Shown: positions 3,342-50,157 of the stretch, piece after piece
How positions within the stretch are numbered: the stretch's first letter is position 1
How the letters are laid out: each line of letters starts with the position of its first letter
Position numbers and translations under genes: made by a program
Assembly (NCBI RefSeq): GCF_026151205.1
Contig: NC_087074.1
Location: forward strand, 1,364,001 to 1,428,000
Direction of reading: 5' to 3'
Source of the DNA: Bolinopsis microptera
Taxonomy: Eukaryota > Ctenophora > Tentaculata > Lobata > Bolinopsidae
Length of the DNA: 64,000 nt
Notes under the pieces: generated by a model
The model's database searches: none
What the model saw: the letters and a program-made list of their open reading frames with translations, nothing else
What the model was told of the DNA's origin: nothing

Positions 3342-3343
3342 AC

Positions 3344-3631: not shown

Positions 3632-3633
3632 TC

Positions 3634-4699: not shown

Positions 4700-4723
4700 A
4701 TGACAACGCGTGACTGTCACGTG

Positions 4724-6419
4724 ATGAAGCCAGTGATACTGTTAACACTGTTCATTTGGTTTACAAGTACAGCTCACGCACAACCTTCTAAAGGTAGGGG
4801 AAATATAATGCACATAATGCACAACAGCTTCTAATTAGATATGATATGAACAGAAGAGCGCATGCTAGTCAGGAATCATTGTCTGGTCTAACATAGTCTG
4901 TAAATCTAGCATATTAATAATAGGATGTCATAAATAAAGTTATAAATTTATTTATTTCAGTTCGTGATCAGAAGATAGCAGAGATAACTCCAACAAAAAT
5001 AACAAAAGGATCCGCTTATCTAAATGACGAGGAAAGGTTGAGTTTTGCTGCTGAACATGCAATTGATAAGGATCTCTCAACAGTAGCAGTAACTGTAGGT
5101 AGCGCAGATAACGCAGATAACGGTGCAGTCTGGATAAAGTTAGAGTTTGATAGGACCTACTTTATCCACAAGGTCCTTATCTACTACATGTTCTACACTA
5201 ACTGGTATGATCCAGAGCATTGGTGTGCACAAACTGCAATTAAATTTAGGGACTGTGTCAACAGCGATAACAACGTGGATGTGTCAGTATACCAGGGAGG
5301 GGTAAAACAGAAGTCTTGTGGAACACTCCAACTAACATACGCACTAGAGCAGGCAGACCAGATCTACACACTGATCTGTAACACTGAAGGAGATACTGTA
5401 AAACTCAGTAAGAGTACTGGAAACATAGCGGTCTATGAAATAGCAGTTCAGAGTAGAGGTACTGTTTTTCTAATTATCAAATAATTAAGAAGCCCTTTAC
5501 TTGCTTCAGTGTATTTATCGTGTTTAGTACTACTGGTTACCTGATAGTATCCATAACATTCTATGTGGCCCTGAGCTTGACAAAGTGAATGGAGTATTTA
5601 TTTTTAAACCTCATATCCTCCGTCAAGTGTGCTTCAATGGCCGCTGGTAGAGCTGACTACGAAGTTATGAAAATGACCTTTCCTTCTCAGAATGCGACAA
5701 CTTCGTCAGTTCTGATTTCCCGGGAATGTTGGATCTATCACCGTGGTTACCAGTATTAACAGGAACAGTTCTTACGGTGGAATGTGGCAGATCTCATAGA
5801 TTTGCCGTGGTGTCCGGGGACAAAACCCTGACTTGTGTCCACGGTTAGTACAACACTTGCTTATCTGTTTAGTTACATAATCTATATAATTTACATGATT
5901 TACATAATTTAAAATTATTATTATTATTGCAGTATAACGAAATAACGATAACGATAATTCTTCAGGATCTACCTTCGCCTACTACCAGATTCCTAAATGT
6001 GAAAAAATAGGTAAGTGAGATTAATAAACCATGATTGATCCTTTGATATTTGATACTGTTCATCAAAGACATGAAATAATTGGGAGTTATACTTTGTCTT
6101 TGCATGACCAGTTATCACTGAATTTTCTCCATTCACGCTGTTAATAACATACCAGCTAAGATAAAGAGATAGCCGCCACCTCCTCATCAGAATCCGGGTA
6201 TAATAAGTATAGAATTGTTGTATTTTATATAATTAATTGCACTGTTAATTGCAATGTACGATCTGTTCGTTAAGCTGAGAAACTTTCCACTATTTTATCT
6301 TTCATGTACGCCCATTTAATGCGGCCCTTTAATTGGAAAATTAAGGAGTTCACTTATTTTTAATACTATCCTTTTTAATATCTGTTTCAGAAACCTCAAT
6401 ACTCCATCTTGAGATTTAA
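4724..6419 (+). CDS. secreted F5/8C (discoidin)-CCP protein, five exons
   Basis: Exons 4724-4793, 4961-5458, 5691-5843, 5966-6010 and 6391-6419 give 264 aa. Every intron is GT-AG and phase 1, as usual for shuffled extracellular domains. Exon 1 encodes a signal peptide (MKPVILLTLFIWFTSTAHAQ); an in-frame ATG eight codons upstream is less likely. Exon 2 encodes a galactose-binding-like domain resembling F5/8 type C (discoidin), with the typical opening in which the substrate-exposed chain is followed by AAEHAIDKD, then WIKLEFD and a YYMFYTNWYD strand. Exons 3-4 look like one CCP/sushi module: TVECGRS, LTCVHG and IPKCEKI give the spaced cysteines. Exon 5 ends with a nine-residue tail. Likely a secreted carbohydrate- or lipid-binding recognition protein. 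The ligand is unknown. The mirrored copy at 48243-49720 differs mostly at amino-acid-changing sites. Confidence 0.75.
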
Positions 6420-6497
6420 GAGTAATTTCAGATTAACAGTGTGGAAATATCTTTGGACTACGTATCGTTGAAGTTCATTCTATATCATAATTGAGTA

Positions 6498-7192
6498 CCT
6501 TAGGGCCAAAAAATTTGGGTCACAATAAATTTTGTTACTATAATTTTGGTTTTCCATAATTTTGGGCACAAATTTCGCAAATTTTTAGTCTACAACAATT
6601 TTAGTCGAATTTTTAGACTTTTCGAGACCATGTTCTATTCCATTTATTTGATTTTTCCATCATTAAGCTAGTTTTTTTTTCAATTTCGCATATAAAGTCT
6701 TACTTTATAGTGAACTAAGTACAGACAATGGAACACATGTATTAGAAATTTCCCATGGCCCACGTGCACACCGCGCGCCAAACGGTCACGTGGACAAATT
6801 ATCAACCTCGTGATCCTGTAACTTATATATTACACCATACGCCCGTATTTTGGTAAGGAGGAATATTCTCGATCTGGGAACATTCCAACGAAAGGCCAAC
6901 ATTACATACATTGCATTAGTTACATATCATAGGCCATAGCATACAATTTCTTATTACACGCAGTAGGGACCTGTGTACAGTTAGCGATATTTAATTAACT
7001 GTTTATCATAAACATAATATGATAAAGTCAAAGAATGTAAGCTCAATAAAATTTAATTCATAGATGCTCTATTAAAATTTTGGTCTACTTCAAAATTAGT
7101 CGCCGAAAAATTTAGTCACGTGAAATTTGGTTTACAACAATTTAAGTCAAAAGTTTGACTAAATTTATGGTAGACTAAATTTGTCGTTAAGG
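6498..7192. mobile_element. 695-bp DNA element with TA target duplication
   Basis: Inserted at a TA (6496-6497 and 7193-7194). Ends are CCTTAGGGCC and GTCGTTAAGG, so terminal inverts begin CCTTA with AAATTT-rich subterminal sequence. The mirrored allele shows the empty site with a single TA at 48164-48165 and matching flanks (ATTGAG and a TTTTATTATGG stretch). No coding capacity seen. A non-autonomous TA-specific element, plausibly Tc1/mariner-like. Confidence 0.8.
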
Positions 7193-7318
7193 TAATCATT
7201 TTATTATGGTATGTAACACGACTTATTTCCTGGGGCCAGAATGTTGCAAATACCTTAAACACTGAATAAAGTTAAATCAATAAAACAACATAACGAAGCT
7301 AGACTCTATAGCGTGTAC

Positions 7319-10278
7319 CTGATAATCAAGAATCATCTGCTCGAGGTGCGTGCTCTTCATGAAGAAGTTGTATTTAGAGCCGGGGTCGGTACTAGCCAGG
7401 AACTTCTTGCTCATTTCCTGGTTCAGGATGCTCACTGGGTTGTTCACCTGAGTTGGGGAGTTAATTGTTAATTGGTTAATTGGTTAAGTGGTGAGCTGAG
7501 ATTAAAGAGGGGGTTTACTAGCTGCATGACATGCTCATAAGGATTATAAGTATTGGTTTTGTGACTGAATAATGGCATTCGAGGGAGTGATCACAGAGTT
7601 TGAGGAATTAGAGTTCGCCTCATGAAGTTTAATGAAGGAGTAAGTAACCTTAAATGTTGCTATTGACCACATATAATTGACTCTAACATTTTTTTTGGAA
7701 ATGAAGCTGTCTTTCACTTTAGTTCTTGTTCCTCTAAAACATAATAATATAGATCTCAGACAAAGGAAACTTATTTTGGTACAAATCCAGTTTAATAATT
7801 GAATACCTTACTCGGGATTATTATGACCGGGATAAAGTGGTGGGTTTAGGGTAATTTCGCCATATTTTTCCCGAACCACATTTTCACCGGTCGTTAATAA
7901 ACCCGCCTACTCAGCTTTTAGGGTTCCCAAGGGGTATGGGTGCTCATATTTTAATCGTTGTCTTATATTCACTAAAGAAGACTATTGGGACACTTGTTGT
8001 AGGTTTTTCGACTTCATTTGGCTAAAATTGCAAAAAATTCACCTTTTTGCCCAATTCTTGTCATATATCCTTATTGTCAAATTTGATTTAAATAGGCCAA
8101 TTTTTAATTTCTTAGGTATTGACTATCTCTACATAATGAAATAGGACTCAAAGTAAAAGTAACAGTTAAATTAAAACTTGAATTAATTAAAACTGATGAA
8201 AGGGATGATCCAGATGAAGATAACGAAGATGATTACAACTTATTGGAAGACTAAACAGCTCTCCCTTTATCTTAATATCGATCTGGTTGTTACGCTTCAA
8301 ATGTTAAAAATTATTTTCCATCTAGTTTGATTAACCACGAGTCATTATTTCTGTCTACTTTCAACAATTATTGATAATTCGACTTGTTTCACAAGTTTTA
8401 GCAATGCGAAAATTTCTAAACTTGTTTATCTCTAATAAGGAAATTTACATCTGAGACAAAATTTTTGAATCTAAAATTGAAAGGTTGGACACCGGTAAAA
8501 TGGCGACCGGGAAAATGTGGTGGGTTTTGAGCAATTTCGCCATATTTTTCCCGAACCATATTTTAACCGGTCGTTAATAAACCCGTCGTAATAATCCCGA
8601 GTAAGGTAATAGTTCAATACCTTACTCGGGATTATTACGACGGGTTTATTAACGACCGGTTAAAATATGGTTCGGGAAAAATATGGCGAAATTGCTCAAA
8701 ACCCACCACATTTTCCCGGTCGCCATTTTACCGGTGTCCAACCTTTCAATTTTAGATTCAAAAATTTTGTCTCAGATGTAAATTTCCTTATTAGAGATAA
8801 ACAAGTTTAGAAATTTTCGCATTGCTAAAACTTGTGAAACAAGTCGAATTATCAATAATTGTTGAAAGTAGACAGAAATAATGACTCGTGGTTAATCAAA
8901 CTAGATGGAAAATAATTTTTAACATTTGAAGCGTAACAACCAGATCGATATTAAGATAAAGGGAGAGCTGTTTAGTCTTCCAATAAGTTGTAATCATCTT
9001 CGTTATCTTCATCTGGATCATCCCTTTCATCAGTTTTAATTAATTCAAGTTTTAATTTAACTGTTACTTTTACTTTGAGTCCTATTTCATTATGTAGAGA
9101 TAGTCAATACCTAAGAAATTAAAAATTGGCCTATTTAAATCAAATTTGACAATAAGGATATATGACAAGAATTGGGCAAAAAGGTGAATTTTTTGCAATT
9201 TTAGCCAAATGAAGTCGAAAAACCTACAACAAGTGTCCCAATAGTCTTCTTTAGTGAATATAAGACAACGATTAAAATATGAGCACCCATACCCCTTGGG
9301 AACCCTAAAAGCTGAGTAGGCGGGTTTATTAACGACCGGTGAAAATGTGGTTCGGGAAAAATATGGCGAAATTACCCTAAACCCACCACTTTATCCCGGT
9401 CATAATAATCCCGAGTAAGGTACTTCATTTACCTGGATGTTGTAATGGTCGAGAAGAAGCGTTAAATCGTTCTTCTTTGTTGATATGGTCTTCCCTTCAA
9501 AGTTCTTCAGTTTGTACTTACTGCCCTGCTTCGTTATTTTCCTCTCCACCAGCACGGCAGATCCATATAGCTGGACATTTCACAATTTAACTTACAATTC
9601 AACAAAAATGGGACTAACTACTAAGTGAAAGTAATACACCGCGCCGTGATACTAATTTTTTAAAACATGAACAACTGTCCAATTTTCATTTCCCCTCAAT
9701 AATAAATAACACAAAAACTGCACTCACCTCAACTTCCCAAGCATCGTGATTATGATTAGAGTTGCAGATTGTGATGGTAACTTGGCCCCAACTCGAACCT
9801 TGCTTGATGAACTCTGTCATGTTTGGAGCTCGGTTTGTAGCGGAACTTTTTCCGCCAAGTCCAATGACAAGCGCCATCAAGATAGCTGATTTACCGCCTG
9901 GTGGTAATGGGATGATTGACTAGCTAATTAATTAATTAATTAGCTAATGGAACATGGTGTTCCTTGTTATCAGTACTCAGAGCGAAAATCTCAATTCGAG
10001 CAATTTAATTCATGAACAAATATTGAAATTACAGTGCTTACTTAAAAATACAACAAAACCAAACTGCACTACAAGATAAACTTACTTCCATTTCTTCCGA
10101 CGACAAAGTTGACGGTGGAACAAAACTCGACCTCAAAAAATGTGTGGCACATAAAGTTCTGAAGCTCAATCTTCATGATCCCGCCGGGGACTAGGGCTCC
10201 CTCTCCCAGCCCCTCAGGGTCTGCTCTACCCCTCTTACTTCCTGGCCCCGGCCTATCGGGGGCTCTCTTCTGGGACAT
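7319..10278 (-). CDS. SMC6: SMC6 5' exons (ATPase head N-lobe), incomplete
   Basis: Four exons (10086-10278, 9728-9897, 9433-9570, 7319-7447) splice GT-AG into exactly 210 codons in frame. SMC6 is the ATPase core of the SMC5/6 complex in chromosome repair. The N terminus carries a short basic tail, then [11 protein letters not shown], and a Walker A motif split across the first intron (GRNG + SGKSA). Next come the R-loop/GLGGKSS region, LVERKITK, and the SMC6-typical [16 protein letters not shown] with [11 protein letters not shown]. Coiled coils, hinge and C-lobe are absent from the window: reading past the last donor hits a stop after about 14 codons. The rest may lie left of position 1, with the F5/8C gene nested in a long intron, or may be lost. 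Two transposons sit in the third intron. Confidence 0.8.
7806..8606 (+). mobile_element. 801-bp TA-flanked MITE, copy 1
   Basis: Terminal inverted repeats CCTTACTCGGGATTATTA / TAATAATCCCGAGTAAGG, flanked by TA at 7804-7805 and 8607-8608. A subterminal direct repeat of about 80 bp (GACCGGG through GTTAATAAACCCG) lies near both ends (about 7827-7905 and 8505-8586). Near 8196-8254 a short open frame ends in an acidic tail ([16 protein letters not shown], stop at 8252-8254), possibly a relic of a parent element's protein. Lies in an SMC6 intron. Confidence 0.9.
8620..9420 (-). mobile_element. 801-bp TA-flanked MITE, copy 2 (inverted)
   Basis: Same element in opposite orientation, TA duplications at 8618-8619 and 9421-9422. 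Only 9 bp of host sequence (ATAGTTCAA) plus the TAs separates it from copy 1, making a 1.6-kb near-perfect palindrome. The mirrored allele carries both TA targets unoccupied (47564-47565 and 47553-47554). Confidence 0.9.
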
Positions 10279-11255
10279 ACTGGGGGTGCTATTGGAGATG
10301 TTGAGATTAGAAACTAGTTTAACACAGTTTGCTTATTTCTTGTTTGTTTTTGATAGGTGGTTTTTAGATTATTACCACGTAATGAAAAGGTATACGGTGT
10401 TTTGAAGTCCATTTTTACTTGCGATGTTTTGAAGTCCATTTTAATTGCTATGTTTAAAAAAGAGATTTTTGAAGGTATACAAAATTTGACTGATGTGGAA
10501 AATTTGAGAACTTCGGTGTATTAACTGAAAACGAATAAATCACAGAGCTTCAATCTATTAGAAAGTATTAGTTTAACAAACGTAAACTGTCATTCGAATT
10601 AAGAATGAGCTAGAATTTCGATATAATAATAAGCAAATCCATTATAGAACTTATTATTAACATATCATGATTAAAAAATCGAGAATAAAAAATCTATAAA
10701 AGTATAAAAAATCTGATCAATAAATCAAATCTCTAAAAACCAAAAATAAGGTGCTAAAAATTACATTTAATTCGGTCATTAGTCAAAAACAATTGAAAAT
10801 GGAATTTCTCATAATATGATCGATTTCAGCATATACGTTTCTATATCGAAAGATAAAACAACTATCCCTCATGATACATGAAAATGATCACTAAACTATA
10901 AACTTTCGTTAACAATGCTAAAAGAGTAAGCAAATCGTCAATCTACATCTATATGAAATCACAAACAAACCGGTCGACCACCGACAAAAACAATAGCTAA
11001 AAATTTGATAAAATATCGAAGATATTATAAAATGATATAAAATTAGGAGACTAAAGTCAAAAAATTGCCTAAATAAATTAAAAGATTCCTAACTTAACAA
11101 GTCATGAGGGGATACAAATTAATGACGCATAAAACCAAATGAATCTAATCAGAAGTGGTCCAACAACAAATTCGACCCCTCTAAAAAACTTACTCTAGAA
11201 TGCAAATTATCACGAGGGTAATTCCGGAAAGTTCTACCAAATTCTTACAAGTGAT

Positions 11256-14200
11256 CTAAAAGTTACCGTTGTTAAAATAACTTGACGGTTGAGAGAAATA
11301 CATGTCGTGTCCCTGTACCGGTGAGCCCTGAGCGGTGGAGGGACTGAGAGGGGCCGGTGGTTGGAGGTATATGTCGGGTGGCTGGAGAGCAGGTGTTGAG
11401 AGTGGGTAAGGGGTCAGACTCGGCAATTCAGTCGACCACTGAAACTAAGGATGCGTTATGTTTGGGGTTAAATGCACGTCCAGCTATGAGAACACATCCC
11501 TCCGAGCTAGCGATACTAAATAATTCATCACAGGAATGAACTAAATCCAAGTGGGCTTGGTTAAATTACCTGGTAGCCAGGGTATAGGATACGAGGAGGG
11601 CTTGGTTAAATTACCTGGTAGCCAGGATATAGGATACGAGGAGGGCTTGGTTAAATTACCTGGTAGCCAGGGTATAGGATACGAGGAGGGAGAGCGTACA
11701 AGCTGCCGAGAGGAACATGGGTTACTGCTGGGGTAGTGTTGTCACCCCAGCTACTCCTGCTCGGTTTATCAGCTGTGTTGTTATCCTCACTGACCTGCCC
11801 CATCCCTGTAATGGATGAAAAACGTTTTGTTGTGGATCTCAAATGTAGAAATGGATATTTTGGGAAATACCGGAATATTGTGTTTCTATGATGGAATACA
11901 AAGATTCTTGCATTGGGGGGGGGGGGGGGGGGGGGGGGGCCAATGGCATAAAATGGCATAAAATGGCATAAAATGGAGACTTTTTCTATGGAGAAAATGG
12001 AAAAACCCATGAGTAATTCTCCATTTTCTCCATTTTATGCCATGAATTTTGTCTTCGAAATTTCATCTTTAACACCATTTAACACCTAAATTGGACATCC
12101 TAACATGTTTATTTACGCTTACTAGGGGCGTAAGAAGCTTATGAAAGCTCATAGTAGGCTACTAGATGCTTATACTAAGTTAGTAGAGGCACACTTCAGG
12201 CAAACTCATAATTACTCAAGCCTAATGTAAAGTTATTTCTACAGGCTACAGCAGGAGTGAGTAATAGGGGAGAGTAATAGGCACTGAGAAGTGAGACCTA
12301 CATCCTCGACAGTCGAAACAAGCTCGCACTGCAAAGGGGAGGCCTGCTTTCCGAGATCGCATTACCAGGGGGAATCCTCGAGTCCAAAATTGTGTACCGA
12401 GGGGTAATTTTCTAAGTCAAAATTTTTCAAAGTTTTTCTGAAAAACACTTTTCTCCACGTTTCATGCTACCTTGTTCATTTTAAGCCGAAAATATTTTTT
12501 CGGTCAACATTTTTCAAATTTTTTCTGAAAACCGCTTTTCTCCACGTTTCATGCTACTCTGTTCATTATTTGCCGAAAATATTTTTTCGGTTTTTCGAAG
12601 TCCACACCTTCCCCTAGATACACAATTTTGGACTCGAAGTAATGCGATCTCGGAAGGCAGGCCTCCCCTTTGCAACACGAGCTCGGAATCGGGAGCTCTC
12701 GATACGAGAGGTACGTATCGAGAATGACTTGGGCCGAAAATTTTCTCAGTCAAAATTTTTCAAAGTTTTTCTAAAAACCACTTTTCTCCACGTTTCATGC
12801 TACCCTCTTCATTATTAGCCGAAAATATTTTTTTTTAAAATACTTTTTCTCGAAATTTTAAATTTTTCAGGTTTTCAATGGCATAAAATGGCATAAAATG
12901 GCATAAAATGGAGACTATTTCTATGGAGAAAATGGAAAAACCTATGAGTAATTCTCCATTTTCTCCATTTATGCCATTGGCCCCCCCCCCCACCCCCCCC
13001 CCCTTGCATTTTTATATTATATTATTCTATAAGAATATGCTTTAAAAATGTTTACAGACCCATACAAAAATAAAGATCATAAACATGTGATTCATCTGTA
13101 CGGAAACCAAACCAGTTTTTCTAATGTAAACATAAATTAAGAAGACTGACCGTAGAGAGAGTACAACATGGACGGAGGTTGTGGAGGAGGGGGAGGTCGG
13201 ACAAAGTTGGGAGCTGACAGCTTAGCAGCCAATACTGGGGTGAGTGGTGGGGACAAGGGGTGGAGACTGTTACCAGAACCAGGACTTCTGGGAACATGCA
13301 GTTACTATCAATAACAATTACAAGCTGGTTCAACCCACATGAAAAAGGCACAGTCATCGTGCAATTTTCATCTTTTAGAACTATGTCATGTCAATAAATG
13401 ATTTTATTTATAAAACCGGCAAAACTTACAAATTCACAGGTTTAGGGGAGGATGTGTAACAGGGCTGGATGGTATGATAGGTTCTGTTCCCCTGTTGCCC
13501 CTGACAACCACTCGGAATCTTTATAACAGTTGTACTGGGTTCACATTCCGGAGCTGATTTTTCAGGAGTTGAGCTCGTCACTGCACCATCTAGACTGCTA
13601 CAACCACTTGACAGCTGGTCAGATTGCACAAATTGTGGGCTGTGAGGAGTTGAGATGGTACCGGGCGTGGAGATGAAGTTGTCTGCGTACTTCATTATAT
13701 CTTTATCAACGTGATCAACAAGATCACTCGTCATGTCAAGGTTTATCTGAAAGAAATGGTTCCGGTTATCGATTAGAATCGTCAAAAATTGATTAAATTA
13801 ACTTTAGGCAATCCTCAATCTTCATGTTTTAAATATGATTACAAATTGTTACTTTCTCATAAATTGTCACAACTGAAAGGAGTAATAATTGATACAGTTT
13901 TGAAAATACTTACAAAAATTTTGAAAAATACTAACAATAGTTTTGAAAGTACTTACAACAGTTTTTGAGGCAAACATTTGTTTGAATTGTTCCGTTTCCT
14001 TCTTCATGAATTTAGAACACTTGTTCCGTAGAGTAGCTATGACGGGGTCTGACCCCACCCTGCCAGGATATCCCAGGTCCAGGATAAACTGGTTCTGCTT
14101 GTACCACTGCCAATGTAGGGAATATTAATTCAAGTATTTGTAATACTAATAGAAGTACTCGAAAATTTAAGAAGCACATAAACTGAACCAGATGAACGTA

Positions 14201-17200
14201 GATGTTTTTATAATTATTTAACCTCGTTATCATATAGTTTCTCAGTTACCTTAAGTTACCATTAGAAATTAGAAAAATCCCTACCTTGTAGAGACTCTTG
14301 AATAGCATATTCATACAGCGACTCTCTTCTATCCTTACAGGAGGAAGAGGGAAGCCATGTCTCAGATGTACTGCTATCATTGTCTCTAGGAATGTGGACT
14401 TCTCTTCAGCTGTCTGTCTTCTGTACTCCTGGGTGATTGGCAAGTTTAGAATGTTTTCGTTTTAAGTTTCCTTGTGGATCGGGCTAATGCTACATTTTAT
14501 TTCGATAATATGCCTCATTCCATTTAATCATTTTGTCGATAGGATTACTGAAAAAAGAATCGGCTTCTGTTCCGACATTTGATCTTGATCAATTACATTT
14601 ATTAAAACCCCATCGCGTGTCAGGACTCAGGAAAGATATGGATCATCAATTTAATAATATTCAAATTTATGACAAGTTTTCGTAGAAAATCACTGATAAT
14701 CGCTGATAATCACGAATCAAGGAGTTACGGAGAATCAACAGGCATGCTACACAGCAAATTCCCCACAAGCATTACATATTAGTGCACAGCAACCGCAAGA
14801 GATAATATGGCAGATGCATACAGGATGGGTGCTTACAGCGTTAACTCACCTGGTCACATGATCGTGTCACGTGATCTGGTCACATGATCGTACACAACTA
14901 GATGTTTATATGGTACCTGGTACCGGTCAGTTTAAAAATATTAACATTTTATTTAACAAATTCCACTCGATTTTATAGTACATTCTTTAAATATTTCTTA
15001 TACTTTTTGACGTTTATACCACTAAAAATTCAAATCACAGGACCAAACTTACTTCCTTCAGGTCACTATCGCAGGAAGCCCATTTCTCACTGATAATTTT
15101 GCTCATAAAACCGATTATCCTTCCCTGGCGCTCTCTGGTGTAGGAGCCTGGTGAGGTCCTGACATCAACCGTCTGCGAAGAAAATATTTATTTAAACTAA
15201 TTACAACATTACTCATTTATTACATTTATTGAGGACGTTACAGAAGGAATGTATTTAATGTAGTTTGAGGAGTCCTCACTCTTCTAACGTCCGATAATGG
15301 CATTTCTCTTGGACTCGCTAATATGAATAGTTTTTGTAAAGTCTCAGCAGTAGAGTTTGAATATTATTGGGGGGTTGTTTTCAGGATAAAATGTCAGTAT
15401 GTTTAGTAAACCCAATGGTTGTATCCACAGTCCGACTACCACAACTCGGTCAGATATTTCCCAGAAAGTAACGCCTCATCATTTGTTTCTTGGGAGAAGC
15501 TTTCTAATCTTTAGCTATGGCTTCAACTTTTGAGTAATTTGTTGCACGTATGATAAAAAATGTTTTTCTGTGTCTCCTCACAAAAAATAAGTTAAGACAA
15601 AGTTAGGTGACATTTTTAACACTGACCAGAAGTGGGAGGTTTCACACAGGTGGATAACAGATTATGAGTAAATCAAAAGGAGAACTAACAGATTCTCGAA
15701 TTAGCCTTTCAACAAATGATTGGCGTGAAATCGTCTGTAGGACTACGCCCCTAAACAATAAACCCTTTATAAAGTTTACATATAATGCTTACTCGACACA
15801 TCTACAGCACCATCGACTATATAGGATTTTTTTAAAGCATACCGCGGTCTTGATCTTAGTTGCTTCTGGAATGTAAATGTAAAGTAACATGAAACATCTG
15901 TTCTCAAATATGTTTTCGCTTTTTACCATTCAGTGTCGATCAACTGTTAAATATTCAACAAATGATTGGTGTGAAATGTTTGAAAGGGTTTATTGTTTAC
16001 GCCCCTAAACAATAAACCCTTTCAAACAGAGAAACTGAAGGTGGTATAAAGTTATACAGGGTGATTCAAAAATAATGTTTGGATTGTAAAAAATAATTTT
16101 TTATGAAGGAGCAAAAAATTTTTTTATGAAGGAGCAAATTTTGAAAGATGAGTTTCTATCAATTCATAAACGTTATTAATTTCATTCTGACTTTTCATTT
16201 GATCCTGCCTCATGATTCTAGGATAAATCACCAAACTGCTCGACTCAACTCCAAGATGAAATACTTTCTTGTGTTTGCCTTGTTTGCACTTGCCACCGCC
16301 GGGCCCGCCCAGCGTGATGGAAACGACATAAAACCAAAATCTCCGCATCAAGTACCAGCAATCTTTGTAAGAAACCTCCACAGAGCCAATCAGAGCGAGC
16401 CCTATGACTTCAAGTTCAGAGTGATCGGAATGAAACCTCTCATAGAATCTGAGGTGCATCTGTATAAAGTAGAGAAGGGAGAGGAGGGTCCAGAGCTCAA
16501 GGTAACAGATTTTGATATCTCTTTGAAGACACTGTCTGAGGAAGATATCATGCAAATGATTAGTGAGAAACGTCCCAAACCTGAAGACAAGGTTAATAAG
16601 TATGACTCAATTTGGTAAATACCAATTTTGAGGGATTTTAAGTGTGACACTTAAAAATTAAGGGTGACACTTAAAAGAGAATTTCGTGAATACCATTTGT
16701 AGAGTTGCCACTTAAACTCCTTTTTAAGTGCGACCTCATCCTTAAACTGCTGTTTAAGTGTGACCTAAAGGTTGGTAAATAAGAGACGTTCCAAAACTAG
16801 TGAGAAGGATGAAATTGAAGAGAGACGTCTTAGATCTCACGGCAAAGATGATAAGAGACGCCCCAGAGCTGACGACAAGGACGATAAGAGACTTCCCAAA
16901 CCGAAGCACGTTATCATTGGGAGTGTGAGCGTTGCTAATGTAAGCTGTGATGAACAGGGATCATATCTGGTGTACTACGGAACACTGCCTCATGTCAGTC
17001 ATGTGTCCCGTAATGTCAGGGAGGTTGGTAGTAACAAAAAACATCCAAAACCGCGAGGTACATTCGTTCTCATGGTGAACGGTTGTGAAAATCAGGACGA
17101 ATAGGAGATGAAGAAAAATACACACCTAATAAAGCTTGTAGCATAATATATTATTCTGATTTATCATTTTTGACAAAAGAAAAATATGTCTTTCATTTTC

Positions 17201-19311: not shown

Positions 19312-19315
19312 TTAA

Positions 19316-19965: not shown

Positions 19966-19969
19966 TTAA

Positions 19970-37580: not shown

Positions 37581-40500
37581 ACCTTGCTACTCCACTCATG
37601 TGCGGCGGGATGCGAAAGCACGCTGTGGGGATGGAGGTGGGTTAAGGGTGTTTGTGTGTGTGCCAGTCGGGTGACTACATAATGGAGGGGTGACGGAGCG
37701 CACGCCCCTCTCTCACAAGTGAGGGGTTGAACCCGCTCTCTCAGACTCACTCCTCGTCGAGAGCAAGTGAGACTAGAGCTATTCTCCCTAACTGTAGAAC
37801 TCCTACTCACATAAGTTTTAAACACTTGAGACACAAGTGAGACGACATATGAGATGTGATCATGTTTGAATTTAAGGTTGTTGCTGAACCATGGTGAAGA
37901 GACATCGTGGTCTTGGTGGTAGCACTGGTCAGTGAAAACAGATAATATAGTTTTCAGAAAAAATTAATGTTATTTGTGGTGCGATTGCCAGCAGATGATG
38001 CCCTCTGGGTGGATGTACAACGACAGTTTTCTATTGGGATTTTGTGTTGTTGTTATCTGTTTTTGAGGCTGTTATGGCGGCTTATATTTGATTGTAGATA
38101 ATGAATGAATGGTTTTTGAAAACCTGTTTTTTTGAGATGTGTTTTAAAAAAGAAATTTTACAGTCGCTCATGGATCGTTATAATTTAGATTATTTTGCCA
38201 CAAGCTTTTTTAATTGGAACAAGAAAACCCGTGTTAAATATGATTTTTCAAACAAGCTTTAACGAACTGCAACTTTTTAAATTGCTAATTAATTTAAACC
38301 TTGAAAAGTTGTATAGGAAAAGAATTTAACTTCAATATCAACTATTGGAAAGATCCTACTCCAAAAAAGATGTGATGAACTATGATAATATTATAATTCC
38401 AAATACTGTTTTTTTTCTTTTTATTTTTAGTACAAAGTAACATTGGTTTAAAACAGGAAAGGACAGAACTATTTTGATTTTGTGCATAGATTGTACATTA
38501 ATCTCGCCATTATAGTTGGGTTAAGCGTTTCTAACCAATTTTTGAGAGCAATTTATTTTCAAGTTTGCGTCTCTTTCAAAGTTTATAGGTGGTAGCCTGC
38601 TGTAGAGCATGATGGAGTTGTGCGAATGTCGTTAAGTAAATTCGCGGTCTGCTCTGGTCATACACCTACGTTTTTACCCTTTGTTTACTTGTCAAAAACA
38701 CACCATGGGAGGTGTATAGTGGTTGCAGTAACGTTGAGTATTCATAATTAACTTTGAAATCCGGGACAAGACACTGAAGTTTTCTGATCCAAAAAAGTTT
38801 ATGAAAATGTACAATAAGCTATTATTCAATAGCATAATATGAATTGGTATGAACTAGATGATATGTACATATTATACAACTAAAATATGTGTTCTCCTGA
38901 AAATAAACCATTCTATTTGTCCGCTGTCCCGTACAGGATTATTTATCCGAATTTGTCAATAATTGGATATTAATTTTTTGAAACTCACAAATAATATTTA
39001 CATGTGATATATAATGTCTTTGTGGTTACTGCTTATTTGTGCAAGTATTTATTAAAAAAATCGGAATTAAACTCCTGGTCGAACTACAAAAAATTTTGCT
39101 AGAAATCAAACTTCTGGGGGGGTGGGGTGGGGTCTCAAAATGCAAATATTAAAATCAAAAGGTTGATGTAACCGAAATTGTTTCACACATTTTAAACGTT
39201 AAGGCGCTGAGTAGAGAATCTGCAGTTTCTGTTCAAACTTTTAAGTCCTCTTCACCACCTTTCCAACGGAATCGTCTGACTCTCCGTGGCTTTCCGTCTT
39301 TTAACTCGAATATTTACACAGGCAACGAATGTTTTCGAAGAGCCAACCGTCAAAAGCAAAAATAAAATTAGTTTGGCTATCAGGGTGCACTGATATCACC
39401 AGGTTTATATCCGCGGCCACCTTGTAGCCACACTAGGGAGAGCAAAATACCGGACCGACAGGTATTAACTCTTTACTATTCACATGTATAATTATACATA
39501 TGGGATAATACATATTGGCGTACGAATCCTAAATAGTAAACTGTCTTTCGGTTTTACTAAATTGGCAAGAATACCGCTGAAAGGGTTCCTTCGCACTCGT
39601 TCACGGAACGCGCGAATAAGAACGTTTGTGTAACAAGTGTTTCCGATTTTCGCGCAGAAACCTGATGCGCGACACACGCGCGCTAATCGGCAATTAATGA
39701 TAAGCACGATCGTGTACAAACATGGCCTCTAAAATGTGAACCTTTCCTGTAGACCCCTAATTGATACATTTTGAGCCGGAAGTTAACCATTAATCCTAGG
39801 AAGTTATTCTCTACGCAGCTCTTGATCTTTGCTGTATTGGTGTCGGTGGTTTGCTTTTAACAAAGTTTAGCAATAACTAGCACTAAACATTTGAACGACC
39901 GAGTATTTTTCAAGGAAATAGAATATAGAATGGGGAAGCGAAAAGGTATTGTTAATCCTCATCTACGAATAAGGACTCCTTACACTAGATTCGCTATGAC
40001 TTTGGGCCTGCTACAAGGTTAGGTTCAATCAATTGTAGAAACTACATTTTAAAACTAAATTGTCCTCCTGACATGGTTTGGTTCAACTCTCAACTGATGA
40101 AGGTCACTAAATACTCGAATGTAACTCTTGGACATATCCTGTTCAGGCTTACGGACATCACAAGGCTGTTATTTCGAAACCTCGGTTTTGACCGAAACAG
40201 AGAGGGAAGATTCTGTTCGAGTTTTTTGAAGAATCTAAAGCCGAAACACAACACTGGATAATATTAAGAGACCGTAACCTATCAGTCTGCAGTCCTTCCG
40301 CTCGGAGTGCTCTAATTTGACTTGCTTAAAGGATACAAAACCATTCCTTGGTATCCCGACTCTACAGACTCTCGCTCTGCTCTGCGCCCCGCTCCGTCTT
40401 ATAGAGTCCTGGCGCGTCGGGAGTGCAGTGAAGTCCAGGGAGTCACTGTGGCTACAAGAGTCCCAGAAGCGAGATCTATGGCGACAGCCCTGTAACACTA

Positions 40501-40977
40501 CTAAACTGACTCTCACGCGGTGTATCGTTCCTACTTTGTGCACCACTGGAACCCTTAATCTACATCCCTCCCGGTTCCCAATAAGATGATGAGGTGGACA
40601 TTTTACCTGATCCTGATCATAAAAAAAAAAAAAAAAGAAAGAAAAAATTGTGCCTTTCTTCCGGCCAGGTATTTATATTGTAATTCAAGTCACAAAGTTA
40701 TGTAATTATACGTACGACGGTTGTTTAGCACGATAGAACAGTTTAAACAAATATAGGGACTGTACAAATCAGCTAGTTCCATTTAGTCCCAAATAGCAAT
40801 TTCCCGCTAGATACATTTGTAATTGTAACACGGTTGTCCGTCAAATTCAACAATTGTTTTTAGTAATCCTGGCCAACGAAAATGAAAGAACATATGATTC
40901 TTTTGTCAAAAATGATAAATCAGAATAAGATATTAATGCCTACAAGCTTTATTAGGTGTGTATTTTTCTTCATCTCC

Positions 40978-41845
40978 TATTCGTCCCTGATTTTCACACC
41001 GTCACCATGAGACACGGATGTACCTCGCGGTTTTGGATGTTTTTTTTGTTACTACCAACTCCCTGACATTACGGGACACATGACCTGACATGAGGCAGTG
41101 TTCCGTAGTACACCAGATATGAGCCCCTGTTCATCACAGCTTACATTAGCAAACGCTCACACTCCCAATGATAACGTTGCTTCGGTTTGGGAAAGTCTCC
41201 TTATCGTCCTTTGTCGTCAGCTCTGGGGCGTCCCTCTTACATCTTTGCCGTGAAGATCTAAGACGTCCTCTCTTCAATTTCATCCTCTCACTAGTTTTTG
41301 GAACGTCTCTATTACCAACCTTTAGGTCACACTTAAACAGCAGTTTACGGTGATGTTCGCACTTAAAAAGGAGTTTAAGTTGCAACTCAACAAATGGTAT
41401 TCCCACGAAATTCTCTTTTAAAGTGTCACCCTTAATTTTTAAGGTGTCACACTAAAAATCCCTCAAAATTTGGTATTTACCAAATTGAGTCATACTTATT
41501 AAACCTTGTCTTTCAAAGGTTTGGGACGTTTTCACAACGAATCATTTGCTGATATCTCCTCAGACAGTGTCCTTCAAAGAGAATCAAAATCTGTTACTTG
41601 AGCTCTGAACCCTCCTCTCCCTTCTCTACTTTATACAGAATGCCCTCAATTCTATGAGAGGTTTTTCATTCCGATCACTCTGAACTTGAAGACATAGGGC
41701 TCGCTCTGATTGGCTCGGTGGAAGGTTCTTACAAAGATTGCTGTAACATTGATGCGGAGATTTTGGTTTTTATGTCGTTTCCATCACGCGGGCGGGCCCG
41801 GGCGGGTGCAAGTGCAAACAAGGCAAACACAAGAAAGTATTTCAT
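40978..41845 (-). pseudogene. frameshifted mirror copy of the secreted precursor
   Basis: Counterpart of 16256-17104. Signal-peptide codons near 41790-41845 and the dibasic region near 41200-41320 are recognisable, but several indels break the frame. Confidence 0.7.
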
Positions 41846-44800
41846 CTTGAGTTGATTCGCATTTTGGTGATTATCTAGAATCATGAGGCCAGGATCAAAT
41901 GAAAATTCAGAATGAAATTAATAACGTTTATGACTTGATAGAAACTCCCATCTTTCAAAAATTTGCTCCTTCATAAACAATTTTTTTGCTCCAATCATAA
42001 AAATATTGTGTACTACAATCCCAAACATTATCCTTGAATCACCCTGATAACTTTATACCACCTTCAGTTTCTCTGTTGAAAGGTTTTATTGTTTAGGGCG
42101 TAAAACAATAAACCCTTTCAAACATTTTTCACCACAATCACAATGTTGAATATTTTAACAGTGATCGACACTGAAATGTAAAAATCCGAAAACATATTTG
42201 AGAACAGATTTTCATGTTACTTTACATTTACCTTCCAGAAGCAACTAGGATCAGACCGCGGTATGCCCTTTAAAAAAATCCTATATAGTCGATGGTGCTG
42301 TAATGTGTCGAGTAAGCATTATATGGAAAACTTTATAAAGGGATTATTGTTTTAGGGGCGTAGTCCTACAGACGATTTCACGCCAATCATTGTTGATAAT
42401 GCGCATCGAGAATCTGTTAGTTCTCCTTTGATTTACTCATCATCTTTTATCCACCTGCGTGAAACCTCCCACTTCTGGTACAGTTTAAAAAATGTCAACC
42501 TAAACTTTGTCTTTAACTTAAATTTGTAGTGAGGAGACACAGAAATAACATTTTTTATATACGTGCAACAAATTACTCAAAAGTTGAAGCCATAGCTAAA
42601 GATTAGAAAGCTTCTCCCAAGAAACAATGATAGCGGTACTTTCTGGGAATCTCTGACCGAGTTGTGGTAGTCGGACTGTGGATACAACCATTGGGTTTTA
42701 CTAAACATCCTGACCATTTTTATCCTGAATACAACCTCCCAAATATATTCAAACTCTACTGCTGACACTTACAAAAACTATTCAATATTAGCGAAAAGAG
42801 AAACGCTATTTTCGGACGTTAGGAGAGTGAGGACTCCTCAACAACATTTAAATAATTCCTCTGTAACGTCTCAATAAATGTAATAGGTGTGTAAATGTTT
42901 AATTAGTTTTAAATAAATATTTTTCTTCGCAGCACGGTTGATGTCAGGACCTCCCCAGGCTCCTACACCAGAGAGCGCCAGGGAAGGATAATCGGTTTTT
43001 ATGAGCAAAATTTATCAGTGAGAATGGGCCTTCCTTGCGATAGGTGACCTGAAGGAATACGTTTGGTCCTGTGGATTTGAATTTTAGTGGTATACACTCA
43101 AAAAGTATAAGAACATATTTAAAGAATGTACTATAAAATCGAGTGGAATTTGTTAAATAAAAATTAATATTTTTAACTGACCGGGTACCAGGTACCAATA
43201 AACATCTAGTTGTGTAACATCATGTGACCAGATCACGTGACACGATCATGTGACCAGGTGAGTTAACGCTGTGAAGCACCCATCCTTAATGCATCTGCCA
43301 TTATTATCTCTGAGGTTGCTGTCACTAATTATTAATGCTTGTGGGGAATTTGGCGGTAGCAAATGCCTGTTGAATTCTCCGTAACTCCTTGATTCGTGAT
43401 TATCAGCGATTATCATGATTTTCTACGAAAACTTGTCATAAATTTTGAATATTATTAAATTGATGATCCATATCCTTTCCTGAGGTCCTGAACACGCGAT
43501 GGGGTTTTAATAAATGTAATTGATCAAACAAATGTCGTAACAGAAAGGCCGATTCTTTTTCAGTAATCCCTATCGCCAAAATGATTAAATGGAATGAGGC
43601 ATATTATTCGAAAATAAAATGTTAGCCATTAGCCCGATCCACAAGGAAACATAAAACGAACACATTCTAAACTTGCCAATCACCCAGGAAGTACAGAAGA
43701 AAGACAGCTTGAAGAGAAGTCCCCACATTCCAGAGACAATGATAGCAGTACTTCTGGAACATGGCTTCCCTCTTCCTCCTGTAAGGATAGAATAGAGTCG
43801 GCTGTATAATATGCTATTCAAGATCTCTACAAGGTAGGGATTTTTCTAATTCTAATGGTAACTTAAGGTAACTGAGAAACTATGATAATGATAACGAGTT
43901 AATTAATTATAAAAACATCTAACGTTCATCTGTTTCAGTTTATGTGCTTTCTTAAATTTTTTCGAGTACTTTCTATTATATTACAAATACTTTGAATTAA
44001 TATTCCCCTAACATTGGCAGTGGTACAAGCAGAACCAGGGTTATTCCTGGGGACCTGGGGAATCTCCTGCAGTGGGGCAGACCCCGTCATAGCTACTCTA
44101 CGAACTAGTGTTCTAAATTCATGAGAAAGGAAACGGAACAATTTCAACCAATGTTTGCCTCAAAAACTGTTGTAAGTACTTTCCAAACTATCAATTATTG
44201 CTCCTCTCAGTTGTCACTATTTAGGAGATAAGTAAGTAACAATTTGTAATCATATTTAAAACATGAAGATTGAGGATTGCCTATGGTTAATTTAATCAAT
44301 TTTTGACGAGTCTAATCGCTAACCGGAACCATTTCTTTCAGATAAACCTTGACATGACGAGTGATCTTGTTGATCACGTTGATAAAGATATAATGAAGTA
44401 CGCGGACAACTTCATCTCCACGCCCGGTACCATCTCAACTCCTCACAGCCCACAATTTGTGCAATCTGACCAGCTGTCAAGTGGTTGTAGCAGTCTAGAT
44501 GGTGCAGTGACGAGCTCAACTCCTGAAAAAGCAGCTCCAGAGTGTGAAGCCAGTACACCTATTATCAAGATTCCGAGTGGTTGCCAGGGGAATAGAACAT
44601 ATCATACCATCCAACCCTGTTACACATCCTCCCCTAAACCTATTAATTTGTAAGTTTTGCCGTTTTTATAAATAAAATCATTTATTGACATGACTATGTT
44701 CTAACAGATGAAAATTGCACGATGACTGTGCCTTTTTCATGTGGTTTGAACCAGCTTGTTATTGATAGTAACTGCATGATCCCAGAAGTCCTGGTTCTGG

Positions 44801-45168
44801 AAACAGTCTCCACCCCTTGTCCCCACCACTCACCCCAGTATTGGCTGCTAAGCTGTCAGCTCCCAACTTTGTCCGACCTCCCCCTCCTCCACAACCTCCG
44901 TCCATGCTGTATTCTCTCTACGGTGAGTCTTCTCAATTTATGTTTACATTAGAAAGACTGGTTTGGTTTCCGTACAGATGAATCACATGTTTATAAGATA
45001 TTTTTCGTTTTTGTTTGGGTCTGTAAACATTTAAGCATATTCTTATAGACTAATATAATATAAAAATGCAAGAACCTTTGTATTCCATCATAGAAACACA
45101 ATATTCCGGTATTTCCCAAAATATCCATTTCTACATTTGAGATCCACAACAAAACGTTTCTCAACCAT

Positions 45169-45219
45169 TACAGGGATGGGAATATCTAATCTAATAACTG
45201 TTAAACTACAGGGATGGGG
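45169..45219 (+). repeat. duplicated 3' splice site of exon 8
   Basis: TTACAGGGATGGG occurs at about 45168-45180 and again as CTACAGGGATGGGG at about 45207-45220, giving two candidate acceptors. The left arm has one. Confidence 0.7.
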
Positions 45220-46678
45220 CAGATCAGTGAGGATAACAACACAGCAGCTGATAAACCGAGCAGGAGTAGCTGGGGTGAAAACACTTCCTCCCCTGCAGTA
45301 ACCCATGTTCCTCTCGGCAGCTTGTACGCTTTACCTCCTCGTATCCTATATCCTGGCTACCAGGTAATTTAACCAAGCCCACTTGGATTTAGTTCATTCC
45401 TGTGACGAATATGCCGTATCTGCGGTGATTCAAAATCTAAGTCGATATTTTTCTTATTTAGTATCGCTAGCTCGGAGGGATGTGTGCTTATAGCTGGAAG
45501 TGTATTTAACCCCAAACATAACTCAACCATAGTTTCAGTGGTCGACTGAATTGCCGAGTCTGACCCCTTACCCCCTCTCAACACCCGCTCTCCAGCAACC
45601 CGACATATACCTCCAACCACCGGCCCCTCTTAGTCCCTCCACCGCTCAAGGCTCACCGGTCCAGGGACACGACATGTACTTCTCTCAACCGTCAAGTTAT
45701 TTTAACAACGGTAACTTTTAGATCACTTGTAAGAATTTGGTAGAACTTTCCGGATTACCCTCGTGATAATTTGCGTTCTAGAGTAAGTTTTTTAGTGGAG
45801 GGGTCGAATTTGTTGTTGAACCACTTCTGATTAGATTCATTTGGTTTTATACGATCGTCTTTAATTTGTATCCCCTCATGACTTGTTAAGTTAGGAATGT
45901 TTTAATTTATTTAGGCAATTTTTTGACTTTAGTCGCCTAATTTTATATCATTTTATAATATCTTCGATATTTTATCAAATTTTTAGCTATTGTTTTTTGT
46001 CGGTGGTCGACCGGTTTGTTTGTGATTTCATGTAGAATGTAGATGTAGACTGACGATTTGCTTACTCTTTTAGCATTGTTAACGACAATTTATAGTTTAG
46101 TGATCATTTTCATGTATCATGAGGGATAGTTGTTTTATCTTTCGATATAGAAACGTATATGCTGAAATCGATCATATTATGAGAAATTCCATTTCCAATT
46201 GTTTTTGACTAATGACCGAATTAAATGTAATTTTTAGCACCTTATTTTTGGTTTTTAGAGATTTGATTTATTGATCAGATTTTTTATACATTTATAGATT
46301 TTTTATTCTCGATTTTTTAATAATGATATGTTAATAATAAGTTCTATAATGGATTTGCTTATTATTATATCGAAATTCTAGCTCATTCTTAATTCGAATG
46401 ACAGTTTACGTTTGTTAAACTAATACTTTCCAATAGATTGAAGCTCTGTGATTTATTCGTTTTCATTTTTCAGTTAATACACCGTTCTCAAATTTTCCAC
46501 ATCAGTTCAATTTTTTATACCTTCAAAAATCTCTTTTTTAAACATCCCAATTTTAAAGTAAAAATGAACTTCAAAACATCGTATTTCATTACGTGGTAAT
46601 AATCTAAAATCCACCTATCAAAAACAAACAAGCAAACTGTGTTAAACTAATCTCAACATCTCTAATAGCTGTTCCAGT

Positions 46679-48036
46679 ATGTCCCAGAAGAGAGCTCCCG
46701 ACAGGCCGGGACCAGGAAGTAAGAGGAGCAGAGCAGACCCTGAGGGGCTGGGAGAGGGGGCCCTAGTCCCCGGCGGCATCATGAAGATTGAGCTTCAGAA
46801 CTTTATGTGTCACACATTTTTTGAGGTCGAGTTTTGTTCCACCGTCAACTTTGTCGTCGGAAGAAATGGAAGTAAGTTTATCTTGTAGTTCAGTTTGGTT
46901 TTGTTGTATTTTTAAGTAAGCACTGTAATTTCAATATTTGGTCATGAATTAAATTGCTCGAATTGAGATTTTCGCTCTGATTACTGATAACAAGGGACAC
47001 CATATTATGTTCAATTAGCTAATTAATTATCCCATTACCACCAGGCGGTAAATCAGCTATCTTGATGGCGCTTGTCATTGGACTTGGCGGGAAAAGCTCC
47101 GCTACAAACCGAGCTCCAAACATGACAGAGTTCATCAAGCAAGGTTCGAGTTGGGGCCAAGTTACCATCACAATCTGCAACTCTAATCATAATCACGATG
47201 CTTGGGAAGTTGAGGTGAGTGCAGTTTTTGTGTTATGTATTATCGAGGGGGGGGGGGGGGGGGGGGGAATTATCGAGGGGAAATGAAAACTGGACAGTAG
47301 ATTGTTCATGTAAACAAATTTAGTATCACGGCGCGGTGTATTGCTTTCACTTAGTAGTTAGTCCCATTTTTGTTGAATTGTAAGTTAAATTGTAAACTGT
47401 CCAGCTATATGGATCTGCTGTGCTGGTGGAGAGGAAGATAACAAAGCAGGGCAGTAAGTACAAACTGAAGAACTTTGAAGGGAAGACCATATCAACAAAG
47501 AAGAACGATTTAACTCTCCTTCTCGACCATTACAACATCCAGGTAAATGAAGTATTGAACTATTATTCAATTATTAAACTGGATTCGTACCAAAATAAGT
47601 TTTATTTGTCTGAGATCTATATTATTATGTTTTAGAGGAACAAGAACTAAAGTGAAAGACAGCTTCATTTCCAATAAAATTATTAGAGTCAATTATATGT
47701 GGTCACTAGCAACACGTAAGGTTACTTACTCCTTCATTAAACTTTATGTTGCGATCATTCCCTCGAATAAGTCAGTCACACAACCAATACTTATAATCCT
47801 TGGCCTTATGAGCATGTCATGCAGCTAGTAAACCCCCTCTTTAATCTCAACTCACCACTTAAACCGATTAACCAATTAACCAATTAACAATTAACTCCCC
47901 AACTCAGGTGAACAACCCAGTGAGTATTCTGAACCAGGAAATGAGTAAGAAGTTCCTGGCTAGTACCGACCCCGGCTCTAAATACAACTTCTTCATGAAG
48001 AGCACGCACCTCGAGCAGATGATTCTTGATTATCAG
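46679..48036 (+). CDS. SMC6: SMC6 5' exons, second allele
   Basis: Exons 46679-46871, 47045-47214, 47405-47542 and 47908-48036 have exactly the lengths of the left-arm exons, with all splice sites intact. Across 630 bp I count 16 synonymous and 2 nonsynonymous base differences (one codon, Gly to Ser in the basic N-terminal tail). Walker A (GRNG + SGKSA) and the [14 protein letters not shown] block are unchanged. The 801-bp element pair is absent from its third intron. Downstream exons are missing here too. Confidence 0.8.
47239..47280. repeat. G-run with a 12-bp flanking duplication
   Basis: ATTATCGAGGGG at 47239-47250, a run of about 21 G, then ATTATCGAGGGG again at 47269-47280, in an SMC6 intron. 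The left arm has a single ATTATTGAGGGG. Looks like a small duplication or the footprint of a G-capped element. Confidence 0.7.
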
Positions 48037-48242
48037 GTACACGCTATAGAGTCTAGAGTCTAGCTTCGTTATGTTGTTTTATTGATTTAACTTCAGTGTT
48101 TGAGGTATTTCCAACATCCTGGCCCCAGGAAATAATTCATGTTACATACCATAATAAAATGTTTACTCAATTATGATATAGAATGTTTCAATGATACGTA
48201 TAAGTCCAACAATATTTCCACACTGTTAATCTGGAATTACAC

Positions 48243-49720
48243 TTAAATCTCAAAATGCTCAAGATAGAGTATTGAGGTTTCTGAAACAGATATTAAAAAG
48301 GATAGTATTAAAAATAAGTGAACTCCTTATTTTTTCAATTAAAGGGCCGCATTAAAAGGGCGTACATGAAAGATAAAATAAGTGGAAAGTTTCTCAACTA
48401 AACGAACAGATCGTACATTGCAATTAACAGTGCAATCAATTACATAAAATACAACAATTCTAAACTTATTATACTCGGATTCTGATGAGGAGGTGGGGGT
48501 TATCTCTTTATCTTAGCTGGTATGTTATTAACAGTGTGAATGGAGAAACTTCAGTGATAACTGGTCATGCAAAGACAAAATATAACTCCCAATTATTTCA
48601 TGTCTTTGATGAACAGTATCATATATCAAACATTGTTTATTAATCTCACTTACCTATTTTTTCACATTGAGGAATCTGGGAGTAGGCGAAGGTAGATCCT
48701 GAAGAATTATCATCATCGTTATTTCGTTATATTGCAATAATAATAATAATAATTTTGAATTATGTAAATCATGTAAATTATATAAATTATGTAACTAAAC
48801 AGTGTAGATAAGCACGACGTGTTCTACTAACCGTGAACACAAGTCAGGGTTTTGTCCCCGGACACCAGTGCAAATCTATGAGATCTCTCACATGTCACCG
48901 TAAGGACTGTTCCTGTTAGTACTGGTAACCACGGTGATAGATCCAACATTCCCGGGTAATTAGAACTGACGAAGCTGTTGCATTCTGAAAAGGAAAGGTC
49001 ATTTTCATAACTTCGTAGTCAGCTCTACCAGCGGCCATTGAAGCACACTTGACAGAGGATGAGAGGATATGGGGTTTAAAAACAAATACTCCATAGTCCA
49101 TTCACTTTGTCAAGCTCAGGGCCACATAGAATGTTATGGATACTGCCAGGTATCTAGTAGTACTAAACACGATAAATACACTGAAGCAAGTAAATGGCTT
49201 CTTAAATATTTGATAATTATAAAAACATTACCTCTACTCTGAACTGCTACTTCATAGACCGCTATGTTTCCTGTACTCTTACTGAGTTTTACAGTATCTC
49301 CTTCAGTGTTACAGATCAGTGTGTAGATCTGGTCTGCCTGCTCTAGTCTATATGTTAGTTGGAGTGTTCCACAAGTCCCCTGTTTTACCTCTCCCTGGTA
49401 CACTGACACATCCACGTTGTTATCGCTGTTTACACAGTCCCTAAATTTAATTGCAGTTTGTGCACACCAATGCGCTGAATCATACCAGTTAGTGTAGAAC
49501 ATGTAGTAGATACGGACCTTGTGGATAAAGTAGGTCCTATCAAACTCTAACTTTATCCAGCCTGCACCGTTATCTGCGCTACCTCCAGCTAGTGCTACTG
49601 TTGAGAGATCCTTATCAATTGCATGTTCAGCAGCAAAACTCAACCTTTCCTCGTCACTTAGATAAGCTGATCCTTTTGTTATTGTTGTTGGAGTTATCTC
49701 TGCTATCCTCTGATCACGAA
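48243..49720 (-). CDS. F5/8C-CCP secreted protein, second allele (exons 2-5)
   Basis: Exons 49232-49720, 48832-48984, 48654-48698 and 48243-48280, all with intact GT-AG phase-1 junctions. Exon 2 is 9 bp shorter than the left allele (one Asp-Asn-Ala unit missing) and exon 5 is 9 bp longer (tail ends LEHFEI). Substitutions are mainly amino-acid changing, for example HKVR for HKVL, YDSAHW for YDPEHW, VTCERS for VECGRS. The domain cysteines are retained. The signal-peptide exon is not seen: the sequence enters a 61-bp repeat array and an N gap first. Confidence 0.75.
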
Positions 49721-50157
49721 CTGAAATACAAAGCTTTTGTTATTTTTGTTGGAGTTATCTCTGTTATTGTTGTTGGAGTTATCTCTGCTATCTTCTGATC
49801 ACGAACTGAAATACAAAGCTTTTGTTATTTTTGTTGGAGTTATCTCTGCTATCTTCTGATCACGAACTGAAATACAAAGCTTTTGTTATTGTTGTTGGAG
49901 TTATCTCTGCTATCTCTGATCACGAACTGAAATACAAAGCTTTTGTTATTTTTGTTGGAGTTATCTCTGTTATTGTTGTTGGAGTTATCTCTGCTATCTT
50001 CTGATCACGAACTGAAATACAAAGCTTTTGTTATTTTTGTTGGAGTTATCTCTGCTATCTTCTGATCACGAACTGAAATACAAAGCTTTTGTTATTGTTG
50101 TTGGAGTTATCTCTGCTATCTTCTGATCACGAACTGAAATACAAAGCTTTTGTTATT
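49721..50157 (-). repeat. 61-bp array carrying an exon start and 3' splice site
   Basis: About seven units, each containing (on the minus strand) CTTTGTATTTCAG then TTCGTGATCAGAAGATAG and AACTCCAAC, that is the acceptor and first bases of F5/8C exon 2. Some units have an internal partial repeat of about 25 bp. The array runs straight into the N gap, so its true length is unknown. Confidence 0.9.

Follow-up and report, generated by a model that had tools for sequence, protein, structure and literature searches.

A large inverted repeat interrupting KIFBP in the Bolinopsis microptera assembly is probably a fold-back assembly artefact

Introduction

Does the genome of the ctenophore Bolinopsis microptera carry a large palindrome within the gene for KIF-binding protein (KIFBP), or was the palindrome created during assembly? 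The question is raised by a stretch of 64,000 nucleotides in the NCBI RefSeq assembly GCF_026151205.1 (contig NC_087074.1, positions 1,364,001 to 1,428,000; hereafter the window, whose coordinates are used throughout). An earlier, sequence-only reading had described here a near-complete palindrome around a 23-bp spacer, with genes and satellites mirrored between arms that differ as two alleles would, and had attributed it to an assembly fold-back, either a chimeric long read or haplotigs joined head to head. Were it a true palindrome, it would be a large one of autosomal type and of interest to genome biologists; the evidence presented below is against this. Judged from the sequence, the inverted repeat is very likely an assembly artefact, with or without a fold-back read, and we put at roughly 0.8 the probability that the main contig came to be linked to an inverted haplotig through a long read of fold-back type.

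Results

Self-comparison of the window bears out the inverted repeat itself, which occupies 4953-49728 and lies far beyond chance. Its left arm (4953-29200) and right arm (29224-49728) meet at 29200/29224, with 27 perfectly matched bases beside the loop, and the chain of inverted matches runs from 4953-6497/49728-48164 inward to a central self-match at 22017-36651. The chained blocks span the whole length of the repeat, and chance is therefore excluded. Exons and satellites are mirrored between the arms, as had been claimed. When up to 3 mismatches were allowed, the window still contained no second copy of the loop, and self-searches, in which same-strand pairs less than 300 bases apart were not listed, gave no arm-to-flank matches of at least 60 bp for 1-4950 or 50,160-64,000.

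The differences between the arms are not uniform along their length, and on this point the sequence-only reading has to be corrected. We compared the arms by chained global alignment, using one aligner for the inner and outer parts, and counted their composition over left-arm positions 5050-13880 (outer) and 13970-29190 (inner). The outer part comprises 5,206 aligned bases with 202 substitutions (3.88%), a transition/transversion ratio (ts/tv) of 1.08 and 13 single-base insertions or deletions (indels), whereas the inner part, with 13,894 aligned bases and 444 substitutions (3.20%), has a ts/tv of 0.31 and 706 single-base indels in the right arm, consisting of 422 insertions and 284 deletions relative to the left arm. 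The density of single-base indels is thus ~51 per kb in the inner right arm as compared with ~2.5 per kb in the outer one. Per kilobase of left arm, single-base deletions and single-base insertions in the right arm number 0-2 each up to ~13.9 kb, as compared with 13-28 and 17-39, respectively, between 14 kb and the centre, except in the partial or indel-rich bins at 19 kb and 29 kb (7 deletions and 6 insertions, and 4 and 5, respectively). The switch is abrupt, with 9 single-base indels at left-arm positions 9,000-13,945 followed by 28 at 14,026-14,584, and its boundary falls at a 21-bp minisatellite near 13894-13965/44183.

The mirrored tandem arrays follow the same division. Six inner arrays were listed in both arms by Tandem Repeats Finder, and four of these have 0% indels in the left arm and 6-15% in the right; the two outer pairs show 0% in both arms and 3% versus 7%, respectively. 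Raw PacBio reads are insertion-rich, and the excess of insertions and transversions fits a raw single-molecule read of PacBio type, a comparison for which no published error figures were found in the literature searched. We regard the inner right arm, ~15 kb in length, as most likely long-read sequence that was never corrected, and most of its differences from the left arm are probably sequencing errors.

Exons present in both arms indicate which of the two carries the errors. The left-arm exon encoding the C-terminal segment of KIFBP (Pfam family KBP_C) is a single open frame of 163 amino acids (aa); its mirror, aligned to 25275-25726, contains 33 gaps, 31 of them frame-breaking, and has a longest open stretch of 69 aa. 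A stretch of a RINGv open reading frame (ORF) has 25 gaps in the mirror, all but one of which break the frame (24/25), and across the whole RINGv ORF the longest open stretch falls from 387 aa on the left to 84 aa on the right. In the mirror of the KIFBP exon at 28.2 kb, all gaps are frame-breaking (5/5). The left-arm exons are open and their inner right-arm mirrors frame-broken, and the errors therefore belong to the right arm. In the outer part, the two arms are equally open across an ORF at 5009-5484 (157 versus 155 aa), and another ORF shows two gaps, of 8 bp and 1 bp.

To separate allelic differences from errors, we counted only substitutions with three matching bases to either side, leaving out 13890-13960. 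Isolated transitions make up 71 of 3,929 columns in the outer arm (1.8%), 7 of 2,373 at 13.96-18.2 kb and 12 of 3,778 at 22.1-29.2 kb, a rate of ~0.3% in the latter two intervals. The ts/tv of the outer arm differs from that of 22.1-29.2 kb (p = 5.7e-11, Fisher; 3.8e-7 and 1.8e-6 with flanks of 5 and 8). Only the outer 5.5 kb and ~18.2-22.1 kb show differences of allelic appearance. The outer 5.5 kb looks like a second allele of left-arm positions 4953-13945, whereas most of the inner arm has the appearance of the same haplotype plus read errors; since the transition rate is low over most of the inner length, a read of the same haplotype fits, as expected of a fold-back. The view of the arms as two alleles thus holds for the outer 5.5 kb and ~18.2-22.1 kb and gives way, at 14.0-18.2 and 22.1-29.2 kb, to differences with the make-up of sequencing errors.

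Relative to the right arm, the left arm carries four insertions of at least 690 bp, three of which are absent from the outer right arm (Table 1). The sequence-only reading had described exact empty sites for such insertions. This is correct for the elements at 6498-7193 and 11915-13002. For the element at 7806-9420, the right-arm site is longer by ~9 bases, and the difference at 19265-20068 does not have the form of a clean insertion. The 1.1-kb insertion at 11915-13002, with G-run/C-run ends and inverted AATGGCATAA-type ends, is one that we take to be hAT-like. The 1,615-bp element matches itself over 7796-9431 with 99.4% identity, ends in CCTTA...TAAGG and has TA on both sides, and resembles a fold-back transposon-like element.

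The outward connection of the right arm also distinguishes it from the left. A genuine palindrome should have clean sequence joining both arms to unique flanks. Here, the outer end of the right arm runs into a minisatellite and a scaffold gap of 100 N, so that no clean sequence joins the right flank, and the arm is tied to the rest of the window only through the stretch of uncorrected quality and this gap (50158-50257), which the earlier reading had not mentioned.

Segments of KIFBP, matched by phmmer to the human KIF-binding protein (6zpg) and by Pfam KBP_C, occur on both sides of the right arm. Once 29.2-50.26 kb is omitted they are colinear with the human protein (residues 192-242, 244-281, 307-361, then 422-468 and 469-615), the break falling between residues 361 and 422. 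The segment at 50575-51012 is the weaker one: its phmmer match (E = 0.047) ranks below two eIF3d matches through an acidic stretch, and its KBP_C match (E = 1e-5, 25.5 bits) is under the curated cut-off of 29.5. An ORF at 52564-52914, considered as the N-terminus of KIFBP, has no KIFBP match and no Pfam family and was not counted. A small tandem duplication was observed around an exon end (27960-28307), where the KIFBP peptide stretch LTELVSPLNIQHFRQVGPWGN occurs twice, in the ORFs at 28110-28307 and 27960-28094. The splitting of KIFBP had been taken as an argument for a fold-back. The gene is indeed interrupted by the right arm, but this is not decisive, because an intronic inverted duplication also keeps the exon order; in combination with the gap of 100 N and the uncorrected fill, the exon order points to a false insert.

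Three further features lie outside the repeat. In the left flank, a 15-bp repeat at 1863-2380 (34.5 copies, 98% matches, no indels) lies within a 262-codon stop-free frame reading KKEVT. In the right flank, a 448-codon stop-free frame at 56785-58131 matches a reverse transcriptase (PF00078, E = 2.2e-7) and is presumably the remnant of a retroelement of the non-LTR (long terminal repeat) type, and a 250-bp self-inverted, hairpin-like repeat with an 86.8% self-match is found at 61034-61284.

Table 1. Features of the window, ordered by position.
Feature	Coordinates	Strand	Evidence or remark
Main contig, clean sequence, containing left arm 4953-29200	1..29200	+	open left-arm exons, 0% indels in left mirrored arrays
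Insertion with TA duplication, clean empty site	6498-7193		right-arm site differs by substitutions only
1,615-bp element, left arm only	7806-9420		near-perfect palindrome; right-arm site with ~9 extra bases
Insertion with 8-bp target duplication CTTGCATT, clean empty site	11915-13002		left arm only
804-bp difference, no clean transposon insertion	19265-20068		
KIFBP C-terminal segment, human residues 469-615, KBP_C positions 214-361	25269..25760	-	E 1.1e-23
KIFBP segment, human residues 422-468, KBP_C positions 167-215	28110..28307	-	E 3.5e-6
Loop between arms, 23 bp	29201..29223	.	single occurrence in window
Inner right arm, reverse complement of 13945-29200	29224..44185	-	indel load, broken exons, alignment boundary
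Mirror of KIFBP C-terminal exon, shattered by frameshifts	32823..33287	+	inner right arm
Outer right arm, inverted counterpart of 4953-13945, clean sequence	44186..49728	-	few indels, substitution spectrum, lacks three left-arm insertions of at least 690 bp
Minisatellite, 206-bp/61-bp, where inverted piece ends	49673..50157	.	repeat listing
Scaffold gap, 100 N, closing inverted piece	50158..50257	.	just outside right arm
Next contig, bearing upstream KIFBP segments	50258..64000	+	no matches of at least 60 bp to arms
KIFBP segment (weaker), human residues 307-361, KBP_C positions 56-128	50575..51012	-	
KIFBP segment, human residues 244-281, KBP_C positions 1-51	51041..51247	-	E 4.4e-5
KIFBP segment, human residues 192-242	51331..51630	-	phmmer E 1.7e-8

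Discussion

In the model that we favour, the main contig, a haplotype consensus, would reach ~29.2 kb, within a KIFBP intron. A long read folding back at this point, its molecule having been read to the end and then along the other strand (owing to a missed or absent hairpin adapter, or to an amplification chimera), would have been taken to connect the main contig with a small alternate-allele contig. The raw sequence of the read would have supplied ~15 kb of fill (29224-44185) and thereby have placed the small contig (44186-50157) in inverted orientation; scaffolding would then have put the gap of 100 N ahead of the next contig. What the sequence itself shows is the two-part right arm, the sharp change in quality, the minisatellite end with its N gap and the colinearity of the KIFBP segments once the insert is omitted; a single raw long read as the source of the fill, its origin by fold-back and the order of the assembly steps are our inference. 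As a fold-back read would lead one to expect, one arm carries an uncorrected level of errors in which insertions exceed deletions, and there is a short spacer at one position in the locus; as in a false duplication, the outer copy is allele-like, is bounded by a gap and interrupts a colinear gene. An assembly fold-back involving a second allele, as the sequence-only reading had proposed, is the best explanation, although the chimeric read and the joined haplotigs that it had offered as alternatives are probably both needed together.

The haplotigs could also have been joined head to head with no fold-back read; in that case an ordinary uncorrected read, derived from the other haplotype, would have lengthened the second haplotig, which in left-arm coordinates corresponds to the stretch between 13.95 and 29.2 kb. 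A second-allele-like outer right arm and the allele-like differences at 18.2-22.1 kb would suit such a join, but we consider it unlikely, as the transition rate of ~0.3% over 14.0-18.2 and 22.1-29.2 kb, versus 1.8% in the outer arm, gives no visible sign of a second allele in the fill at these positions, and as it would take a coincidence for both arms to end at the same base 23 bp apart. It is very improbable that the repeat is a genuine genomic palindrome, that is, an inverted duplication of ~20-24 kb in a KIFBP intron with one arm diverged and badly sequenced: long and continuous as the repeat is, and compatible as such a duplication would be with an unchanged KIFBP exon order, uncorrected quality marks the inner right arm between clean stretches, the right arm is joined only through that stretch and the N gap, and the clean outer part is allele-like where most of the inner part is not. 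The frameshifted exons of the right arm might suggest instead an old inverted duplication that is decaying by mutation, with the right arm as its pseudogene copy. This we find scarcely credible, since a decay process would not come to a halt within ~100 bp at 44.1-44.2 kb, nor would it leave 51 single-base indels per kb at a ts/tv of 0.31 next to an outer part with a ts/tv of 1.08. A genuine palindrome and a decayed duplication have, even jointly, only a very small chance of being right.

Several observations weigh against the fold-back model or parts of it. The interval at 18.2-22.1 kb differs in an allele-like manner, with isolated transitions in 16 of 1,520 columns (1.05%), the 804-bp insertion and minisatellite changes; if the fill is a fold-back read, this requires a left contig that is a mosaic of haplotypes, or else patchy heterozygosity. 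The two short inner array pairs at 14853-14891/43219-43257 and 21945-22051/36617-36651 are free of indels (0%) on either side. A search of seven ORFs beside the break, two with phmmer and five with Pfam, did not place KIFBP residues 362-421. Codon changes between the arms are 4 synonymous and 14 nonsynonymous in one outer-arm ORF and 7 and 5 in another, so that coding constraint is not shown and the status of the outer arm as an allele therefore rests on the substitution spectrum and the insertions; the outer right arm may alternatively be a diverged paralogue. Finally, a SMRTbell adapter remnant at the centre, sought by comparison with the adapter sequence, is not convincing, because its score of 26 was reached by 70 of 1000 random left-arm windows; higher scores at 50681, 44181 and 49561 apparently reflect low-complexity or genomic sequence. 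An adapter remnant is not a required feature, being expected only if the adapter was read through.

Palindromic reads and the closing of gaps with raw reads have both been described, although applying this literature to the present locus is our own extrapolation. Missed or missing SMRTbell adapters are described as giving rise to palindromic reads, which made up 43.6% and 47.8% of two amplified Arabidopsis sets; in an unamplified PacBio set 0.5% of all reads were flagged, a mixture that includes false positives (PMC6218980). The gap-closing programs LR_Gapcloser and PBJelly are described as closing gaps with raw reads (PMC6324547). The locus shares with palindromic reads, as portrayed in passages on missed adapters and whole-genome amplification (PMC6218980, PMC13265396), its mirrored arms, short loop, restriction to one locus and uncorrected inner right arm; unlike such reads, it has a left arm that is clean contig and a right arm that continues into a clean, other-allele-like contig, it has no adapter remnant, and it is known here from the assembly alone. 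Like the false (haplotypic) duplications outlined in PMC9516828, it shows what seem to be two alleles of a locus as separate copies within a single scaffold, with a gap at the boundary; the copy here, however, lies inverted and is connected through 15 kb of uncorrected sequence. True large palindromes, of which the Y-chromosomal ones (PMC6218980) are an example, have in common with it a large inverted repeat and a short spacer; its arms, in contrast, are not near-identical, and one of them is of draft-read quality over 15 kb.

Joins of this kind can be tested for without reads, by following the indel rate and the ts/tv along the arms of any inverted repeat. For B. microptera, the palindrome is almost certainly no real genomic feature and its biological interest is low. 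The artefact would add false, frameshifted copies of KIFBP and RINGv exons to the assembly and lengthen a KIFBP intron by ~21 kb of spurious sequence, and it is open to being misread as a palindrome or as duplicated pseudogenes.

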